DNA from: an uncultured Lachnospiraceae bacterium
GTDB taxonomy: Bacteria > Bacillota > Clostridia > Lachnospirales > Lachnospiraceae
Assembly: GCA_947628955.1 (NCBI GenBank)
Contig: CANRBX010000033.1
Coordinates: 1 to 33,697 of the forward strand
DNA length: 33,697 bases
Direction of reading: 5' to 3'
The position numbers were made by a program, and so were the translations under genes. How positions within the stretch are numbered: position 1 is the stretch's first letter; the number at the start of each line of letters is the position of its first letter. Shown here piece by piece: positions 1-25,478 of the stretch. The notes under the pieces are model-generated. The model ran no database searches. It was not told the DNA's origin and saw only the letters and a list, made by a program, of their open reading frames with translations.

Positions 1-60
1 ATTTTTACGGAAAACTCAGAATCGGGGAATTTGAGGCATCCGGGCAGGCTATAACGAAAT

Positions 61-216
61 TTACCTTTCAAAACTGGGGTGGAAATGGGGCGTTACGATC
101 ATACAGCCGACCTGCTGCCGCACAGCATCCCCCAGGGCGGCAAGCGTCTCCTCCATGTCCCCCGGCCCGTCGTCCAGCCCCGGCAGGATATGGCAATGGA
201 TATCACATATCATCAT
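61..216 (-). pseudogene. truncated 5' fragment of a cpsB-type tyrosine phosphatase gene
   Basis: The minus strand encodes about 51 residues nearly the same as the N-terminus of the intact phosphatase at 1771-2484, including the metal-binding DIHCHILPGLDDG motif and VTPHFHP. After that the match ends, and the frame reads SFER and stops. The rest of the catalytic domain (GHE, AHFERY and ASDCHG motifs) is missing, so it cannot be an active enzyme. It lies outside the left inverted repeat in mirror image to the intact gene. It may be the remains of a second, divergently oriented capsule locus, or a copied target arm. The window ends 60 bases further on, so what follows is unknown. Confidence 0.75.
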
Positions 217-297
217 CTGAATGTCTTTTTTCATCCTTCCGTATGGAAATCGCCTGTTGACATACAAAACGCTCCCAGGCGAAACTTATTACATTAT

Positions 298-382
298 ACA
301 CGGGGATAAAGCAGGCAGATTTCCGGCATCCGCGGCATTTTCAGTCAATTTCACGCTGTGCACTGTCTGAAATACGGATTTA
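298..382. repeat. left 85-bp perfect inverted repeat flanking the recombinase
   Basis: The reverse complement of 298-382 is identical to 1613-1697 over all 85 bases. The match breaks off sharply at the inner edge (383 against 1612) and at 297/1698, where a TATAAT-like hexamer on the left (minus strand, 293-298) faces TTTAAT on the right. Beyond that the outer arms (about 76-296 and 1698-1908) are only about 85-90% alike by eye and carry small indels. An imperfect 24-bp dyad centred on GTGCAC at 349-372 is a possible recombinase core. Perfect identity next to diverged flanks suggests repeated exchange between the two copies. Confidence 0.92.
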
Positions 383-456
383 GTTGATTTCGCTTTTCAT
401 TCATCGGAAATAGTCTGTTAATAATAACCGTCAAAATAGTCCAGGAGGTGATATGC

Positions 457-1449
457 GTGGATATACGCGAACGAATCATACAGAATGTGACAGCCGCCCT
501 GCAGGGCAGAGTACCTGAGGAAACGGTAAATATTGTGCACGACATTCTTGTGCTCGAACTGAATGAATATGAGGTGTCAGAGCGATGCACCGCCGTCACA
601 ACGGCCGAAAACAGCGTGGAAGGGATGCTGCGCCGTTTTATCGCAACCAAGCGGGTCGAAGGTCTGGCGGAAAGCACCATTAAGCGCTATACAGAGCAGA
701 ACCTGGCCCTGATCCGTTTTCTCCAGAAACCCTTATACGAAGTGACCACCTACGACCTGCGCTTTTATCTGGCATACCGGCGGCAGCAGGGCCGGGTAAA
801 CAACCGTACGCTGGACGGAATGCGGCGCTGTTTTTCATCGTTTTTCGGCTGGCTGAACGCCGAGGGGCTGATCGGACACAACCCCTGCGCGGCGCTGAAA
901 CAGATCAAGTACCGCAAAACTGTGAGAAAGCCGTTTTCAGCGGCAGAGCTGGACCGGATGCGCATGATGTGCGGAAATATCCGCGATCTGGCGCTGGTGG
1001 ACTTTCTCTACGCCACCGGCTGCAGGGTATCGGAAGTGGTGCATCTGGATATTGAAGACATTGATTTTGAACGCGGGGAATGTGTCGTCCTGGGGAAAGG
1101 AAACAAAGAACGGATCGTCTACCTGACCGAGGTCGCTCTGATGAACCTCAGGGAATACCTGCGCAGCCGCAGGGACTGTTGTGAGGCCCTGTTTGTCGGT
1201 CGGGGCGGCCGAAGGCTGAGCAAGGAAGGCATTGAGGCCGCCGTGAAGCGCATCGGGGCAGCGGCAGACGTGGAGAACGCCTACCCGCACAGATACCGCC
1301 ATACGCTCGCGACCAACCTCGTTGAACGAGGCATGGATATTTTAAAGGTGGCGGCCGTCCTGGGCCATGCGGACATCTCGACGACCCAGGTTTACTGTTT
1401 TAACAATCAGGCGACCACGAAAACAGATTACGGCAGATATACGGCATAG
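457..1449 (+). CDS. tyrosine recombinase (XerC/D-like DNA invertase candidate)
   Basis: This is a 330-residue phage-integrase-fold enzyme with an N-terminal SAM-like core-binding domain (about 50-140) and a C-terminal catalytic domain (about 160-325). All six catalytic positions are visible: R190 in TGCRVSE, K214 in LGKGNKER, H278 and R281 in HRYRHT, H304 in LGHADI and nucleophile Y313 in TTQVYC. I chose the GTG at 457 because AGGAGGTG ends 6 bases before it; an in-frame GTG at 448 lies inside that ribosome binding site. The gene sits alone between 85-bp perfect inverted repeats and directly before an exopolysaccharide operon, with no excisionase, phage or transposon genes nearby. The inferred job is to flip the 383-1612 segment. 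A general integrase role is the alternative. Confidence 0.93.
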   Translation: MDIRERIIQNVTAALQGRVPEETVNIVHDILVLELNEYEVSERCTAVTTAENSVEGMLRRFIATKRVEGLAESTIKRYTEQNLALIRFLQKPLYEVTTYDLRFYLAYRRQQGRVNNRTLDGMRRCFSSFFGWLNAEGLIGHNPCAALKQIKYRKTVRKPFSAAELDRMRMMCGNIRDLALVDFLYATGCRVSEVVHLDIEDIDFERGECVVLGKGNKERIVYLTEVALMNLREYLRSRRDCCEALFVGRGGRRLSKEGIEAAVKRIGAAADVENAYPHRYRHTLATNLVERGMDILKVAAVLGHADISTTQVYCFNNQATTKTDYGRYTA

Positions 1450-1472
1450 ATGAGACAGGAGCCGTCGTTTTA

Positions 1473-1497
1473 CTCCGGCCGGGCGCCGGAGCTTTTT
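1473..1497 (+). terminator. rho-independent terminator after the recombinase gene
   Basis: A 7-bp GC stem, CTCCGGC (1473-1479) and GCCGGAG (1485-1491) with a 5-base loop, is followed by CTTTTT. It begins 23 bases after the stop codon at 1449. It should stop transcription of the recombinase from running into cpsB, so the capsule operon needs its own promoter or read-through. Confidence 0.8.
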
Positions 1498-1515
1498 GTA
1501 TGCAGAAAATTCCAA

Positions 1516-1600
1516 TAAAACATACAAAAAAGCGCCGGCGGCGTAAAATAACGGCGAAGTATACAAAAAAAACTCTGCGGCGTAAAACGACGGCGGGCAG
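1516..1600 (-). repeat. two tandem terminator-like units facing the recombinase
   Basis: Read on the minus strand, two units of about 38 bases share the pattern GCCGTnnTTTTACGCCG, a GC-rich part and a T run followed by GTAT (about 1560-1600 and 1519-1556). The same beginning and end, GCCGTCGTTTTAC and TTTTTGTAT, occur on the plus strand in the recombinase terminator (1461-1500). Only the inner unit has a short hairpin (CGCC-GCC-GGCG) before its T run. They look like copies of one terminator module placed in both directions inside the putative invertible segment. Confidence 0.5.
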
Positions 1601-1612
1601 GGAAAAGTGCAT

Positions 1613-1697
1613 TAAATCCGTATTTCAGACAGTGCACAGCGTGAAATTGACTGAAAATGCCGCGGATGCCGGAAATCTGCCTGCTTTATCCCCGTGT
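1613..1697. repeat. right 85-bp perfect inverted repeat flanking the recombinase
   Basis: This is identical to the reverse complement of 298-382. It ends 73 bases before the cpsB start and so occupies the position where the 5' leader or promoter of the capsule operon would be. The imperfect 24-bp dyad centred on GTGCAC is at 1623-1646. I could not find a well-spaced sigma-A promoter in the repeat itself. Confidence 0.92.
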
Positions 1698-1770
1698 TTA
1701 ATTTTGCGTGAAAGAGTTTTGCATGTCAACAGGCGATTTTTCATACGGAAGGATGAAAGAAGGCATTCAG

Positions 1771-2484
1771 ATGATGATATGTGATATCCATTGCCATATC
1801 CTGCCGGGACTGGACGATGGATCGAGGGACATGGAGGAAACGCTTGCCGTTCTGGATGAGGCCGCGAGGCAGCAGGTCGGCTGTATGATCGTGACGCCCC
1901 ATTTCCACCCGGGCAGGTACCGCACGGACGCCGAAAAGGTGCTGCGCGTGCTGGAAAGGGTGCAGGACGAATGCGCCGCGCGGGGGTTGGACATCACGCT
2001 TTACCCGGGGCACGAGTGCTACTACTACTCCGGCCTGGTGCAGGAGCTGGAACGCGGAAATGTGCTCACGCTTGCCCGCAGCAGGTACGTCCTGGTCGAG
2101 TTTGAACCAGACTGCCCGTATTCCCATCTGACGGGAGGGCTGAGGGACCTGCAGAACAGCGGCTACGCCCCGGTCCTCGCGCATTTTGAACGGTATGGGT
2201 GCCTGCGCCGGGAGGAAAACCTGCGGGAGCTGAAACAGCGCGGCTTCCTGATGCAGATGAATTTTGACACCCTGCTGGCGAAGGAGCGTCTGTTCCGGCA
2301 TTATCCCTGGAGACGGCTGGTGCGGCAGGGCGCGGCCGATTTCCTGGCGAGCGACTGCCACGGGACACATTACCGGCCGCTGCACGCGCTGCAGGTGCAG
2401 GAATGCCTGGACGGCTTTGCTGGCGCTTCCTGTAAGGAAAAGCTTTTTCAGACGAACGTACTGCGGATACTGGAAGACCAATGA
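1771..2484 (+). CDS. cpsB: CpsB/CapC-type PHP-domain protein-tyrosine phosphatase
   Basis: This 237-residue metal-dependent phosphatase belongs to the PHP family and is expected to dephosphorylate the tyrosine tail of the BY-kinase encoded two genes downstream, setting polymer output. Metal-ligand motifs appear in the family order: DIHCHILPGLDDG near the N-terminus, TPHFHPGRYR, GHE, AHFERY and ASDCHG. The ATG at 1771 follows AGAAGG by seven bases. Reading frames from 1708 or 1723 would be longer, but the mirrored copy on the left has a one-base indel between 1723 and 1753, which argues that this stretch is untranslated. It is the first gene of the capsule-control operon, 12 bases before cpsC. 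Confidence 0.92.
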   Translation: MMICDIHCHILPGLDDGSRDMEETLAVLDEAARQQVGCMIVTPHFHPGRYRTDAEKVLRVLERVQDECAARGLDITLYPGHECYYYSGLVQELERGNVLTLARSRYVLVEFEPDCPYSHLTGGLRDLQNSGYAPVLAHFERYGCLRREENLRELKQRGFLMQMNFDTLLAKERLFRHYPWRRLVRQGAADFLASDCHGTHYRPLHALQVQECLDGFAGASCKEKLFQTNVLRILEDQ

Positions 2485-2496
2485 TGGGGGACACTT

Positions 2497-3222
2497 ATGG
2501 ACAGATTATCAGGACAACAGCCGCTTGCCGGGCAGGGCGCGGCGGACGACGTGATCGAGATCGACCTGCGGGAAATATTCTTCCTCCTGCTGGGCAACTG
2601 GAGGATGGTGTTCCTGGCGATGCTCGCCGGGGCGGTGCTGCTCGGCTCTTTCCACGCTTTCCTGCTGGAGCCTTCTTACCGGGCGGATGCGGAGATTTAC
2701 ATCACAAACACGGACTCCGTGATCTCCTTCTCGGACCTGCAGCTGAGCGCGGCGCTGACGGACGACTATGCCAACATCATCAAGAGCCGCACCGTGCTGA
2801 AACGCGTGATCCGGCAGCTGGAGCTGGACCTCGACTATGAGCAGCTGCGGGAGCTGGTCGAGGTGAACAACCCGGAATCCACGCATATCATCGAGATCAT
2901 GGTCACGTGCGACGATATCGAGCTGAGCCGCAACATCGCCAACGCGCTGCTGAACGTCAGCATCGACCAGATCTACCAGATCATCGGCAGCAATGAGCCG
3001 ACCGTCATAGACTATTCGGAGGCGGAGGCCGTGGAAAATGTGACGCCGTCGCTTTTTTCTTATCTGGCAAAAGGCGCCGTGGCGGGCATGTTCCTGGCGT
3101 GCGCATTCCTGCTCATCCGCGTGCTGATGGATACCACGATCAAGACGGAGGACGATATCGACCGGTACCTGCGCATCCCGGCGCTGGCGTCGGTCCCGTA
3201 TTTCAGGGAATCACAGGAATGA
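2497..3222 (+). CDS. cpsC: CpsC-type Wzz-domain membrane activator of the BY-kinase
   Basis: This 241-residue polysaccharide co-polymerase (Wzz/CpsC family) has the usual two-helix form: a cytoplasmic N-terminus, a membrane segment at about 36-57, an extracellular domain, a second membrane segment at about 190-210 and a short cytosolic tail. The tail reads TEDDIDRYLRIPALASVP, resembling the conserved end that contacts and activates the CpsD kinase. In Firmicutes this protein anchors CpsD at the membrane and influences chain length. GGGGGA lies before the ATG. The length is typical. It is co-directional with cpsB and separated from cpsD by 59 bases that contain a GACGGTAGA direct repeat. Confidence 0.9.
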   Translation: MDRLSGQQPLAGQGAADDVIEIDLREIFFLLLGNWRMVFLAMLAGAVLLGSFHAFLLEPSYRADAEIYITNTDSVISFSDLQLSAALTDDYANIIKSRTVLKRVIRQLELDLDYEQLRELVEVNNPESTHIIEIMVTCDDIELSRNIANALLNVSIDQIYQIIGSNEPTVIDYSEAEAVENVTPSLFSYLAKGAVAGMFLACAFLLIRVLMDTTIKTEDDIDRYLRIPALASVPYFRESQE

Positions 3223-3281: not shown

Positions 3282-4124
3282 ATGGAACAGAATGAACAGT
3301 GGCTGAAGAATCCCAGGACGGCGGGAAAGCCGGCACAGATGGTTTCCATGCAGGTCGAGGAGCTCCCGTTTCAGGCCCGGGAGGCGGTCAACGTGCTGCG
3401 GGGCAACATCCAGATGAGCGGGTACGACCTCAAAACGATCGCAGTCACCAGCGCGGTGGCGCATGAAGGCAAGTCCTCCATTTCCTTCCGGCTGGCGAAA
3501 AGCCTTGCGGGCCTGCACAGGAAGACCCTGTACCTGGACTGCGACATCCGCAACTCGACGACGGTTTCCAGGTACCATATCCAGAAAAAAACGGCCGGGC
3601 TGAGCGAATTCCTCTGCGGCCGGGCGGCGCTGCTGGATATCATCTACAGGACGGAGGACCCGTGGCTGGACATGGTCTTTACCGGGGCGTCCGCGCCAAA
3701 CCCCAGCGAGCTCATATCCGGCGTGATGTTCACCCAGATGCTCGCCTATGTGAGGGAAAAATATGACTATGTCATCGTCGATACGCCGCCGATCAACCCG
3801 GTCATCGACGGCACGCTGATCGCAAAGCACTGCGACGGGACCATCCTGGTGGTGGAGAGCGGCATCACGGAGCGCTCCCAGGCCATGCGGGCCAAGCGCC
3901 AGCTTGAGTACGCCGGGATCAAGATCCTCGGAGGGGTGCTGAACAAGGTCGGCATGCGCAGGGGCGGCTACGGGTATGGATATGGGTACGGCTATGGATA
4001 TGGATATGGTTACGGGTATGGCTACGGGGAAGACCGCGAAGGGCACAAAAAGCACAAAAAGAAGAGATCCGGAAAGAAAACCGGGGACGATTCCCTGAAC
4101 CGGCAGGAAAACACCTCCGCATAA
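3282..4124 (+). CDS. cpsD: CpsD-type BY-kinase (bacterial tyrosine autokinase) with Tyr-Gly tail
   Basis: This is a 280-residue cytosolic BY-kinase of the split Firmicute type. Walker A is HEGKSS with K64, Walker A' is LYLDCDIRNS with D86 and D88, and Walker B is VIVDTPP with D167. The usual tyrosine cluster is here an unbroken alternating Tyr-Gly run of ten tyrosines (Y230 to Y248, bases 3969-4025), followed by a basic KKHKKKRSGKK segment. In the family, these tyrosines are autophosphorylated in trans with CpsC as activator and dephosphorylated by CpsB. The run is encoded by imperfect 6-base repeats (TATGGA and TACGGG types), so its length may vary by slippage. Confidence 0.93.
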   Translation: MEQNEQWLKNPRTAGKPAQMVSMQVEELPFQAREAVNVLRGNIQMSGYDLKTIAVTSAVAHEGKSSISFRLAKSLAGLHRKTLYLDCDIRNSTTVSRYHIQKKTAGLSEFLCGRAALLDIIYRTEDPWLDMVFTGASAPNPSELISGVMFTQMLAYVREKYDYVIVDTPPINPVIDGTLIAKHCDGTILVVESGITERSQAMRAKRQLEYAGIKILGGVLNKVGMRRGGYGYGYGYGYGYGYGYGYGYGEDREGHKKHKKKRSGKKTGDDSLNRQENTSA

Positions 4125-4157: not shown

Positions 4158-5189
4158 ATGGGAGACAGGAGAAAAAAACGCAGGAAGCATCCGCACCGCC
4201 GGAAAACGGTACTGCTGTCCGCGGCCCTGGCATTGCTTGCGGCTGCGGGCCTGGCCCTGGCCGTCCGCCAGATCCGGTCGGACCGGGAGAAGTACCATGT
4301 GACCGCGGGCAATCCCGTGAACATGGCCGGCGGCTACCGGAACATCCGCTACCAGGGGAAAAGCTACCGCTATAACGCGCTGGTCACGACGGTGCTGTAC
4401 GCCGGCGTCGACTCATACGGGGAATTCGGGGACGGGGCAGGGTACGGCAAAGGCCCGCGGGCGGACAGCATAGCCCTGGCCGTCCTGGACAAAAAGCACG
4501 GGAAGATGACGGTCATCGCCTTAAGCCGCGATACCATGACGGGGATCCACAGGTATTCCCTGGAGGGCCGCGACATGGGGACCTATGTCAGCCACCTCGG
4601 CTACGCGTTCAGCTACGGCGACGGCGGGGAGGGGAGCTGCCGGAACCTGAAAGAGGCGGTATCCGCCCTGCTGGGCGGCATCCCCATCAATGAATACGTG
4701 GTCACAAACATGTCGTCCATGCCCTATATCAACCGGCTGGCCGGCGGGGTGACCGTGACGGTGCCCAACGGCGACGTCGCCGCGCTTCACCCGGAGCTGC
4801 AGGAGGGCGCGACCGTGAGGCTCGACGATTCCAATGTGGCGGACTACCTGCACTACAGGGATACGAAGGTTGGTTTCAGCAACGATGGGCGGCTGGAGCG
4901 CCAGAGGGCGTTCATCGACGCGTTTGTCGGGACGCTCCGCGGCCGGCTGCGAAACGAGCCCCAGGCCGTGTGGGAACAGATCGAAGAAATGGACAGCTAT
5001 ATGCTTACGAGCATCACCAAGAATAAATACCTTGACCTTGTAAACCTTTCGCAGGCTGTGGAGTATTCGCATGACTGCTATTACCGGCCGGAGGGGGAGG
5101 ATGCCGCAGGCAGCCTCCATGATGAGTTCCATGTGGACCGGGACGCCCTCATGAAAAAGGTGGTCGAGCTCTTTTATGAGGAAGTCTGA
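4158..5189 (+). CDS. LytR-CpsA-Psr (LCP) family glycopolymer ligase
   Basis: This 343-residue membrane protein has a basic cytosolic N-terminus, one membrane helix at about 17-37 and an extracellular LCP domain. Recognisable conserved blocks are RADSIALAVLD, the phosphate-binding ALSRDTM segment, and YLHYRDTKVGFSNDGRLERQ, which matches the family's RYRDT...GRxxRQ signature. LCP enzymes transfer undecaprenyl-linked glycopolymers to peptidoglycan. It lies between cpsD and two cell-envelope proteins, consistent with anchoring the polymer controlled by this operon. The ribosome binding site (GGAAAG) is weak and a little distant. Confidence 0.92.
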   Translation: MGDRRKKRRKHPHRRKTVLLSAALALLAAAGLALAVRQIRSDREKYHVTAGNPVNMAGGYRNIRYQGKSYRYNALVTTVLYAGVDSYGEFGDGAGYGKGPRADSIALAVLDKKHGKMTVIALSRDTMTGIHRYSLEGRDMGTYVSHLGYAFSYGDGGEGSCRNLKEAVSALLGGIPINEYVVTNMSSMPYINRLAGGVTVTVPNGDVAALHPELQEGATVRLDDSNVADYLHYRDTKVGFSNDGRLERQRAFIDAFVGTLRGRLRNEPQAVWEQIEEMDSYMLTSITKNKYLDLVNLSQAVEYSHDCYYRPEGEDAAGSLHDEFHVDRDALMKKVVELFYEEV

Positions 5190-20254: not shown

Positions 20255-21748
20255 TCAGCCCAGACGCCCGTAGCGCATCGTGACGTCCCGGATCTTCCCG
20301 ATGAGCTCATCCGTCAGCTCGCCCTCTGTCAGCCTCCATTTCCAGTTTTTCCCGAGCGTGGACGGCTGGTTCATCCTGCAGGTGTTGTCGTAGCCGAAAT
20401 AATCCTGCATCGGGATGACGCAGAGCCTGGAGACGCTCCCCATCGCCGTGCAGATCAGATCCCAGTAGATCTCGCTGCCGCTGTCCCTGAAATTGTTCAG
20501 GTAGCTCCGGACCATCCTCCGCTCCTCCGGCCGGATGCCGGCAAACCATCCCGTCAGCGTCTCATTGTCGTGCGTCCCGGTGTAGACAATGCTGTTCACG
20601 GGATAATTGTGCGGCAGATAATCGCTGGCGCTCCCCGTGTCGCGGGAGTCAAAGGCGAACTCCAGCACCTTCATGCCCGGGAACCCGGTATCGCGCACCA
20701 GCTTGCGCACCGTGTCCGTCACGTACCCCAGATCCTCCGCGATCACCGTGCAGTCTCCGAGACATTCCCGCATTTTTCTGAAAAACTCCATCCCGGGCCC
20801 CTTCTCCCAGTGGCCGTTGCGCGCCGTAGCATCGCCGAACGGGATTGAATAATACTCGTCGAACCCGCGGAAATGGTCGATCCGCACGACGTCGTACAGC
20901 CTGAAACAGTAGCTCAGGCGGCTCATCCACCACGCAAAGCCGGTATCCCGGTGGTAATCCCAGCGGTAGAGCGGATTGCCCCACAGCTGCCCGTCCGCCG
21001 CAAAGCCGTCCGGCGGACAGCCCGCCACGGCCGCCGGCAGGTTTTCTCCGTCCAGCTGGAACAGCTGCGGGTTCGCCCATGTGTCCGCGCTGTCATACGC
21101 GACGTAGATCGGGATATCGCCGATGATCCGGATCCCGTTTTCATTCGCGTAGCTCTTCAGTCTGTTCCACTGCTTCTGGAAAACATACTGAATATATTCA
21201 TAAAATTCGATATCAAAATACAGTTCCCTCTGATAGTAATCCATGGAGTACGGCCAGCGCTTGCGGATATCCTCCGGCCATTTGTCCCAGCTCTTTCCGC
21301 CGAACCGGTCCTTCACCGCCATGAAAATGGCGTAGTCGCGCACCCAGTACGCGTTTTCCTCCACGAATTTCTGAAATCCCGCGTCCCGGCTGATATCGCT
21401 GCGCTCATACGCCAGGCGCAGGAGCGGAAATCTGGCCCGGTACATTTTTCCATAATCCACGCTCCGGGGATCGCTGCCGAAATCTGCCTCACCGCACTCC
21501 TCCCTGGTCAGAACTCCCTCTTCGATCAGGTCCTCCAGGCTGATAAAATACGGATTCCCGGCAAAGGTAGAAAACGACTGGTACGGCGAATCCCCATAGC
21601 TCGTCGGGCCGAGCGGAAGAATCTGCCAGTAGCTCTGCCCGGCCCTTTTCAGCTGATCCACAAACTCGTACGCGCTCTCTGAGAAACATCCGATCCCGTA
21701 TTTTGAAGGAAGACTGCTGACCGGCAGCAAAATACCACTTGCTCTCAT
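20255..21748 (-). CDS. malQ: 4-alpha-glucanotransferase (amylomaltase)
   Basis: A 497-residue GH77 enzyme. Signatures are RASGILLPVSSLPSKYGIG at the N-terminus, PLGPTSYGDSPYQSFS, IIGDIPIYVAYDSADTW, nucleophile Asp in VRIDHFRGF, acid/base Glu in VIAEDLG, and TGTHDNETLTGW. It moves alpha-1,4-glucan segments between maltooligosaccharides in the cytosol. The ATG at 21748 follows AAAGGAG; an in-frame ATG seven codons earlier lies before this site and is rejected. It is probably the first gene of the locus and shares it with the regulator. Confidence 0.95.
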   Translation of the reverse strand: MRASGILLPVSSLPSKYGIGCFSESAYEFVDQLKRAGQSYWQILPLGPTSYGDSPYQSFSTFAGNPYFISLEDLIEEGVLTREECGEADFGSDPRSVDYGKMYRARFPLLRLAYERSDISRDAGFQKFVEENAYWVRDYAIFMAVKDRFGGKSWDKWPEDIRKRWPYSMDYYQRELYFDIEFYEYIQYVFQKQWNRLKSYANENGIRIIGDIPIYVAYDSADTWANPQLFQLDGENLPAAVAGCPPDGFAADGQLWGNPLYRWDYHRDTGFAWWMSRLSYCFRLYDVVRIDHFRGFDEYYSIPFGDATARNGHWEKGPGMEFFRKMRECLGDCTVIAEDLGYVTDTVRKLVRDTGFPGMKVLEFAFDSRDTGSASDYLPHNYPVNSIVYTGTHDNETLTGWFAGIRPEERRMVRSYLNNFRDSGSEIYWDLICTAMGSVSRLCVIPMQDYFGYDNTCRMNQPSTLGKNWKWRLTEGELTDELIGKIRDVTMRYGRLG

Positions 21749-21783
21749 CACATACTCCTTTCTCCTCATGTATTTTCGAAAAA

Positions 21784-23429: not shown

Positions 23430-25397
23430 TTATAGCGGCAAACTATCTTTCACACACAGCGCCCCGTAGCCCACCTGGTTGTTCGGGTACTGCGAAAATC
23501 CCGGAAGCTCCCGCGCGCCGCGGCGCAGGCAGGCGCGCACCTTCTCGCCGTAAAGGTACGGGTCGTTGCCGTCCACGATCCCCCACTGCATCAGAAGCGC
23601 CGCGGCGCCGGTCACAAAGGGCGCTGCAACCGATGTACCCGACACGCTGACGTACCCGCCCCCGACCGCCGTCGTCGTGATGTCAACGCCCGGCGCCGCC
23701 AGATCCGGCTTCACCAGGAACGACTGTTCCGGCCAGCCGCGCCCGGAAAAGGAGACGTAGGAATTGTTCCGCGCATCGTATGCGCCCACCGCGATCACGC
23801 GCTCCGCCGTGGACGGAATCGTCAGAGTCGCATCCGGCGACGGCTGCAGGAAACGTGTCCCGCTCCCGCGCGCCCGGCCGTCGTTCATCCACATCTCATA
23901 ATCGCCTGCCACGACGCGCTGCGGCGTCAGGAGGATCTTCCAGATCCCGCTGTCCAGATATGTCCCGTTCGGGATGAAATCCAGATAAATCTCCTGGCGG
24001 CCCTGATACGGGCTCGGCTCCCCGTAATACACCAGCAGCATCGTATTGCCGGCACGGTACCTCCTGGCGCCCGGCTCCTGCCGGATCAGCTCAATCTGAC
24101 GGCCGTCCGGATGGACAAGCGCGATCCCAAACTCGTCCGCGTAATCCTTCCATATCTGGATATTCAGCGATGTCTCGTAGTCGTTGACCAGAAACCCGAT
24201 CTCCTGCTGTCCTCCAAAACTTCCTGACCCGCCTCCGGGGCCTCTGTCACTTTCAAATCGTCCCGACACATGGCCCCCGGTGTTGCCTTCGTTTCCGGTC
24301 CCGGTCACGATAACGCTCTGCCCCCTGCCGGCCATGCTGTCAATGTAGGTCTCCAGAAGTGAGGTCCCGCGGTGGGAGCCGCAGACATTCCCGATGCTGA
24401 TGTTCACCGAAAGCGGCCTTCGCATTTCCTCCGCCTTCCGCATAACATACTCGAGCGCCTGCATCAGCTCCGCTGTCCGCGGAAACCCGTCCTCCCTAGG
24501 CGCTCCCAGCTTCACCACGATCAGGTCGCTCTCCGGGGCTACTCCCCTGTAACGGCCCCCGGACGCTCTCCCGTTCCCTGCCGCGATGCCAAGCACATGC
24601 GTGCCGTGCCCGTCCGCGTCGCGCTCCGGCACGAGCGCGTACCCTGCCGCCCGGCTGCCCGCGCTCAGCGCGGCATTGATCTCCTCCCTGGTATACTCCG
24701 CTCCCGACGCAAAGCCCTCCGGCGTTCTCCCGGTGCCGGACGGCGTCCCCGTCTGATCCCACAGCGCCAGGATCCTCGTGTTTCCCTCGTCGTCCCGGAA
24801 ATCCGGGTGGAAATAATCGACGCCGGAGTCGAGCACCGCCACCAGGATCCCCCGGCCCGTCAGGCCGGTCCGGGGCGCCTGCAGCACCGAGATACAGGAC
24901 GCCGCGCGGCCGGCGTCTGACGCAAAGTACAGACGCTTCGGCTTTTCCACATAGAGAACCTGCGGGAGCGACGCCAGAAGCTCCACCTCGCTCTGCGGCA
25001 GGGTGACGATCGCGTATCCGCCGGAGAGCGTCACGATCTCCCAGTGATCCGGCACGGAAACGCGGCCTTTTCTCTCCGGCCCACGTTTCTGTGCCGGATC
25101 CCCTCCCGTTTCTTCAACTTTTTCTCCGGATGTTTCCCCGGGCATTTTCCCGGCTTTTTCTCCGGATGTTTCCCCGGCCGTATTCCCGGTTTGTTTCACG
25201 GCCGCGGTCTCATCCCCGGTCGCCTCTTCCGGGGCACTTTCAGCCCCGAGCGTGCCCGTGTACTGCACAATGACCTGCCACGTGCGCTCCGCCCTGTCGT
25301 ACCCCGTGTCAAGGCCGTCCGATTTCTGTCTCTCTTCCTGCGTCGCATCCAGCGCCAGATTCAGAAGGTTTTCTATTTTCTGATCGTTTCCGGACAT
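23430..25397 (-). CDS. S8 family subtilisin-like serine peptidase (Csp-like)
   Basis: A 655-residue subtilase with an intact triad: D190 in AVLDSGVD, H264 in GHGTHV and S589 in GTSVAAP; the oxyanion Asn is in GTGNEG. An N-terminal prodomain-like region (about 25-165, including LLASLPQVLYVEKP) precedes it, but no signal peptide is seen. This matches the Clostridia subtilases related to the Csp germination proteases. A Lys/Glu/Gly-rich insert (about 80-130) holds a 12-residue in-frame repeat. The ATG at 25397 follows AGAGGGAG by five bases; an ATG 15 codons earlier is possible. Role in spores is only suggested by the family. Confidence 0.9.
   Translation of the reverse strand: MSGNDQKIENLLNLALDATQEERQKSDGLDTGYDRAERTWQVIVQYTGTLGAESAPEEATGDETAAVKQTGNTAGETSGEKAGKMPGETSGEKVEETGGDPAQKRGPERKGRVSVPDHWEIVTLSGGYAIVTLPQSEVELLASLPQVLYVEKPKRLYFASDAGRAASCISVLQAPRTGLTGRGILVAVLDSGVDYFHPDFRDDEGNTRILALWDQTGTPSGTGRTPEGFASGAEYTREEINAALSAGSRAAGYALVPERDADGHGTHVLGIAAGNGRASGGRYRGVAPESDLIVVKLGAPREDGFPRTAELMQALEYVMRKAEEMRRPLSVNISIGNVCGSHRGTSLLETYIDSMAGRGQSVIVTGTGNEGNTGGHVSGRFESDRGPGGGSGSFGGQQEIGFLVNDYETSLNIQIWKDYADEFGIALVHPDGRQIELIRQEPGARRYRAGNTMLLVYYGEPSPYQGRQEIYLDFIPNGTYLDSGIWKILLTPQRVVAGDYEMWMNDGRARGSGTRFLQPSPDATLTIPSTAERVIAVGAYDARNNSYVSFSGRGWPEQSFLVKPDLAAPGVDITTTAVGGGYVSVSGTSVAAPFVTGAAALLMQWGIVDGNDPYLYGEKVRACLRRGARELPGFSQYPNNQVGYGALCVKDSLPL
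25118..25177. repeat. 36-bp in-frame repeat in the subtilase prodomain insert
   Basis: A 24-base sequence (CTTTTTCTCCGGATGTTTCC and the following CCGG) occurs at 25118-25141 and 25154-25177. The spacing of 36 bases corresponds to two GETSGEK-containing 12-residue units in the peptidase. It is part of a low-complexity linker. Confidence 0.7.
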
Positions 25398-25478
25398 GGC
25401 TGCTCCCTCTGCCGGCATTCTGCGGCAGATCCGATCATTCATTTCTTCCAGTGTATGCGCATCCGGCGCCGATCTTGC

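Follow-up and report, generated by a model that had tools for sequence, protein, structure and literature searches.

The genome of an uncultured Lachnospiraceae bacterium carries, in the leader of a capsule-control (cps) operon, a tyrosine recombinase of a clade associated with phage tail modules. The gene lies between two convergent sequences that resemble the crossover sites of that clade. The reading we favour, with a confidence about midway between doubt and conviction, is that the enzyme can invert the segment 296–1699, and that the 85-bp inverted repeats around the gene are duplicate leaders and not recombination sites. The window analysed is the whole contig C33 (33,697 bp) of an assembly of 136 contigs (completeness 93.77, contamination 6.19%). 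Its relevant features are as follows.

1–76, no strand: end of a dispersed repeat, probably of an IS or MITE, that forms the contig boundary and recurs where six other contigs end
77–219, minus strand: 5' fragment (~48 codons) of a second cpsB, 83% identical in amino acids over 52 residues (64–219), cut by the contig-end repeat
132–385, no strand: 254-bp block identical to contig C115; its outer/inner join is uncertain in a short-read assembly
296–304, plus strand: left candidate crossover site, ATACACGGG, second-best matrix match of the window (15.7)
298–382, minus strand: left 85-bp arm, an outward-facing copy of the cps leader
457–1449, plus strand: tyrosine recombinase, 330 amino acids from GTG 457 (the open reading frame opens at 448), of the clade of phage tail-module recombinases
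1461–1594, plus strand: long hairpin 3' of the recombinase, with a terminator-like stem at 1473–1491
1613–1697, plus strand: right 85-bp arm, an outward-facing copy of the cps leader
1691–1699, minus strand: right candidate crossover site, AAACACGGG, best matrix match of the window (20.2)
1768–2484, plus strand: cpsB (CpsB_CapC, PF19567, 3.4e-62)
2497–3222, plus strand: cpsC, Wzz chain-length regulator, by domain search
3282–4124, plus strand: cpsD, tyrosine autokinase (TIGR01007, 1e-55)
4158–5189, plus strand: LCP-family protein (PF03816, 3.8e-12)

The initial annotation had described a complete tyrosine recombinase gene bracketed by identical 85-bp inverted repeats, with cpsB 5' sequence mirrored on both outer sides, and this arrangement was confirmed. 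The exact repeat belongs to a wider alignment of 90 nt at 99%. Outside it, 77–249 and 1738–1910 are 90% complementary; the mirrored part thus begins at 77 and not at 61 as first described, bases 1–76 being the repeat end. Since this end recurs at six other contig ends, the assembly of this contig evidently stopped within a dispersed repeat, ~48 codons into the left cpsB. In four of those six contigs (L012–L015) the adjoining DNA looks promoter-like by eye.

The recombinase gene stands in front of cpsB-cpsC-cpsD-LCP. The only glycosyl-transferring family among the window proteins scanned with Pfam is a 4-alpha-glucanotransferase (20258–21769) outside the cps operon, and several of the scanned proteins have no family, so the operon appears to supply the control functions of a polysaccharide system. 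The Gly-Tyr repeat tail of CpsD (3955–4030) differs in length from that of the C115 copy, the two proteins having 280 and 284 amino acids. Farther along the window, 23430–25442 encodes a subtilase with a CspB prodomain, which we take to resemble the spore germination proteases.

The recombinase frame is intact and contains a Phage_integrase domain (PF00589, 3.4e-38) and a SAM-like N-terminal domain. Tyrosine recombinases share the catalytic set R, K, H, R, H, Y, and positions fitting this set are present in the alignment; domain and residues together place the protein among the tyrosine site-specific recombinases. The GTG at 457, which follows AGGAGG at 443–448, is the likely start because the relatives begin with MDIR or MDLR. 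The XerA-like NCBIfam model NF040815 scores 219.1 bits, just below its cut-off of 220, and the solved structures matched by sequence are XerC/XerD/XerA-like chains only. The hairpin region 3' of the gene is a long imperfect palindrome with 35-bp direct repeats at 1522 and 1561, and C115 matches it at 1469–1513 only. The predicted fold of 1446–1620 has a z score of −4.04 against shuffles.

A scan of a 79-genome sample at E 1e-60 found matches to the recombinase in eight genomes, the source genome (G000) included. Three genomes of the genus contributed five matches, at 73, 68, 65, 56 and 55% identity. Beyond the genus, the best relatives among the matches listed are one of 62% in genome contigs (genome_contigs) and five loci of 55–66% in viral contigs. 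These 11 close relatives (55–73%), the latter two sets being limited to the matches listed, were examined for their surroundings. PHROG tail families occur at eight of the 11 loci (L034, L035, L036, L123, L124, L125, L126 and L127) and lysis families only at two (L037, L043). L033, the nearest relative among the matches listed, carries three sites, and two of these fall within open frames, with the LNxx phase seen in tail cassettes; the PHROG scan of four proteins from its 5.2-kb contig gave no tail gene. The window protein pairs with L033 (support 100/99) in a 20-row tree, among the phage-tail-module relatives, and the branch from this pair to the other 62–68% rows is weaker (80/91, drawn open). 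The enzyme is thus related to phage tail-module recombinases, as the recombinase of a Rin-like shufflon would be, and is likely of phage origin.

Order and class scans at E 1e-100, which scored at most five candidates per genome listed and may therefore have missed some, matched 2 of 392 and 1 of 391 genomes, G000 included in each. The one new match, L220 (48%), adjoins a fibre-like gene, with no crossover site of the pattern described below and no cps match within 13.5 kb. In the phages collection 45 records match the recombinase, the best at 36% among the matches listed. No match at 1e-4 to the window CpsB, Wzz, CpsD or LCP was found at 160 related loci (L043–L202), which were fetched by protein and are in many cases only 30–45% identical with short flanks, or at 10 further loci.

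Judged from their sequences, the crossover site in the relatives is short (~9–15 bp) and asymmetric and reads AAACACGRR or nearly so. Repeat searches there brought up AAACACGAA and repeats of the AAACACGG type, each in the two orientations. When no pattern was set beforehand, the 7-mer shared by most loci in both orientations within the 2-kb recombinase flanks was AAACACG (10/11 loci); the runner-up, an AT-rich word, reached 8/11 loci and 20 mononucleotide shuffles at most 6. The five best 8-mers, at 5/11 loci each, all fall within the AAACACG site or the sequence flanking it, against 3 loci at most in shuffles. This mononucleotide-shuffle control is weak because other words (8 and 7 of 11 loci) passed as well. 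Across the 11 loci (97,284 bp) the pattern AAAC[AG]CG[AG][AG] has 39 matches, compared with a mean of 5.9 and a maximum of 12 in 50 dinucleotide shuffles. All but one of the 39 are no farther than 3 kb from the recombinase, a closeness to be read with the shortness of most loci in mind. This broader form of the training pattern was adopted once L033 and the window were already known; AAACACGAA had been obtained earlier, from the relatives.

Cassette comparisons point to AAACACGAA as the exchange point. In G016, three pairs of cassettes show 100 bp of identity on the downstream side of AAACACGAA and 28–38% likeness on its upstream side, the change to unrelated DNA falling exactly at AAACACGAA; one pair shows the reverse, with 60 bp of upstream identity and 23% downstream likeness. 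Across the relatives' sites the left arm is variable and the core and right arm are conserved. L034, L036 and L037, which are different places in one genome, have tail-fibre cassettes that are identical and whose joins fall exactly at AAACACGAA; this may reflect cassette exchange between prophages or an assembly effect.

A matrix built from 38 of the relatives' sites was applied to the window; its lowest training sites score 9.3, under the best background matches. The two best matches of the window, the right and left candidate sites, are convergent and lie at the outer edges of the repeats, as the two sites of L035 are likewise convergent, and this arrangement makes an inversion of ~1.4 kb plausible. 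The third match of the window scores 11.1, and the best in 64,694 bp of six other contigs of the same genome scores 12.5. The exact identity of the two arms stops inside the site (298 / 1697). An extended 18-mer with 0 or 1 mismatch occurs in the 3.5-Mb genome only at the right site, the left site and C115; two further matches have three mismatches, and a reversed control pattern gives three matches. The bare pattern is not specific: it occurs three times in the window, at the right arm, 2706(+) and 24775(−), and is absent at the left arm. The three site copies of this genome are copies of one leader and not independent finds.

The initial annotation took the 85-bp repeats themselves as the recombination target. 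This is not supported, as the relatives' site is only ~9–15 bp long and maps to the outer edge of the repeats. We propose instead that a recombinase from a clade known elsewhere in phage tail modules, where it neighbours tail-fibre genes whose ends are exchangeable, came to sit in the capsule-control leader, where exchange at the two convergent sites would turn the ~1.4-kb segment 296–1699, recombinase gene included. Because the repeats are outward-facing leader copies just inside the sites, such an inversion would leave each cpsB with its proximal leader. The DNA beyond the 85 bp would be swapped, the 5' side of the recombinase taking the place of the 3' hairpin/terminator side and vice versa. 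As for their identity, exchange between the repeats possibly maintains it, yet C115, outside the segment, has the same 85 bp.

The two sites are not perfectly matched. The right site, AAACACGGG, fits the relatives' consensus, and the left, ATACACGGG, differs from it by one base, having T for A at position 2 of the 9-mer; the left and C115 sites are identical. The 2-kb flanks of the 11 relatives contain eight one-mismatch variants, of which one is changed at this base. Tyrosine recombinases usually need matched overlap sequences. The one-base difference therefore makes free flipping of the pair less likely and keeps exchange with C115 possible. In the sfx site of Rci, as far as the available text describes it, a 7-bp core is followed by a conserved right arm and preceded by a variable left arm (PMC11852207); by analogy with this layout, the differing base could lie in the overlap, favouring left with C115 over left with right. 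The mismatch, its rarity among the relatives' variants, the identity of the left and C115 sites and the ending of the left cpsB in a dispersed repeat would all suit a locked relic, in which a captured recombinase and its sites remain and the pair no longer inverts or acts only with the C115 site. However, the intact frame with its catalytic residues and the consensus fit of the right site speak against such decay, and we regard it as unlikely.

A recombinase and inverted repeats ahead of a polysaccharide operon, together with the TTGACG that the initial annotation noted at 429–434 on the minus strand and that is present in the sequence, recall a classical invertible promoter, with the repeats as target and the flip turning cps on or off. 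However, in ~385 bp upstream of each cpsB the best sigma-70-like matches reach 8/12 in both orientations, and each arm carries the same outward DNA. A consensus scan of 1–2000 gave two matches where 1.6 were expected. Both are minus-strand matches, and neither has a cpsB close downstream of it; these scans do not exclude other promoter types. One match, at 1586–1558(−), is inside the segment. The other, at 1729–1701(−) in the right leader (TTGACA-17-CAAAAT, 10/12), points into the segment, so that inversion could change what it reads; speculatively, it could read into the recombinase after inversion. The hairpin at 1461–1594 could insulate one side, and Rfam gave no match on 1–3000 up to E 0.1. 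With the relatives' short site at the arm edge, the invertible-promoter explanation appears improbable. Of the earlier proposal of an inversion switch in front of the cps operon, what is supported is that the recombinase probably recognises two convergent bracketing sites; the repeats as target and the promoter flip are not supported. Under the inversion we favour, a regulatory effect on cps is possible.

A third copy of the leader is found on contig C115 (3,988 bp), where the identical 85 bp and the third site precede a second complete cpsB-cpsC-cpsD set and an Hsp20 gene occupies the upstream position in place of the recombinase. The 85-bp block is exact in all three copies. Between the right locus and C115, 990 bp of cpsB-cpsC (window 2059–3048 and L009) match exactly and the neighbouring sequence does not, a pattern suggestive of recent conversion or of mixed strains. 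The exact blocks (85 and 254 bp) are longer than the 76 bp that contig ends have in common; the joins made at the arms in assembly are accordingly insecure, and the assembled orientation is no evidence of the biological state. These blocks, and the contamination value, would also fit a segment that is real but whose side joins mix loci or strains, the true left neighbour being, for example, the complete C115 operon. Such an artefact has, in our estimation, a small probability: the left outer end (77–131) differs from C115 at 4 of 55 bases, which marks it as a separate allele, and the right side continues through one contig.

The arm DNA was found in none of the 46 other genomes of the genus, and no exact 33-mer of the arm was found in viral contigs. 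A raw tally of 2/47 genomes included an arm match in G038, which was set aside at 26 bp only, as was a 31-bp match on contig C44 of the source genome. At E 1e-40, cpsB is present in 7/47 genomes of the genus, G000 included, and the flanks fetched for the six others gave no recombinase match. The best site near those cpsB genes (L211, 12.2) was judged a chance match: its score is within the range of the weak sites in relatives and also of background, and it lies just after a TTGACA-TATTCT promoter-like pair.

A bolder extension of the favoured reading would be a domesticated phage tail-fibre shufflon recombinase that rearranges host capsule leaders, inverting its own segment and exchanging with the second cps locus through the C115 site, so that one clade would diversify both phage receptor-binding tips and the host surface; we hold this to be distinctly unlikely. 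If the recombinase is active, the host would have put a phage diversification enzyme to new use at a capsule locus, one for which a crossover site is predicted. As a caution, the longest inverted repeat should not be assumed to be the recombination site.

The following comparisons rest on those parts of the cited papers that were available. The Rin shufflon of Bifidobacterium prophages combines a tyrosine recombinase that has no arm-binding domain with receptor-binding tail genes and 11-bp rix repeats (PMC6109161), and Rin shufflons are reported in Eggerthella lenta prophages too (PMC8778435). The relatives of the window enzyme share this layout, with exchangeable tail-gene ends and a short asymmetric AAACACGRR, a likeness seen at the level of layout. 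The window itself has short asymmetric sites in inverted orientation, the left with one mismatch. In contrast to Rin, it has no fibre gene with exchangeable 3' cassettes: its sites bracket the recombinase itself at cps leaders, with cpsB, cpsC, cpsD and LCP to the right and the left side ending after the cpsB fragment. Rci/sfx of plasmid R64 (PMC11852207) is alike in its asymmetric sites, by site layout alone, whereas the R64 system acts on pilus adhesin segments. In Bacteroides, invertible capsule loci likewise tie inversion to surface polysaccharide (PMC4747536). Mpi is described as a trans-acting serine invertase (PMC6109161), unlike the window enzyme, a tyrosine recombinase inside its own segment, where the scans showed no promoter switch. 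Group 139 of the Clostridia invertons, which is linked to tyrosine-type recombinases (PMC11892184), is similar in setting, as a clostridial inversion near a tyrosine recombinase. The portions of the literature available showed no recognised tyrosine-recombinase capsule inversion for Lachnospiraceae, Firmicutes or Clostridia, nor a re-used phage invertase. In those same sources, tyrosine-recombinase inversion in phage tails and gut Clostridia is of a known kind (PMC6109161, PMC8778435, PMC11852207, PMC11892184), and what differs here is its placement at cps leaders.
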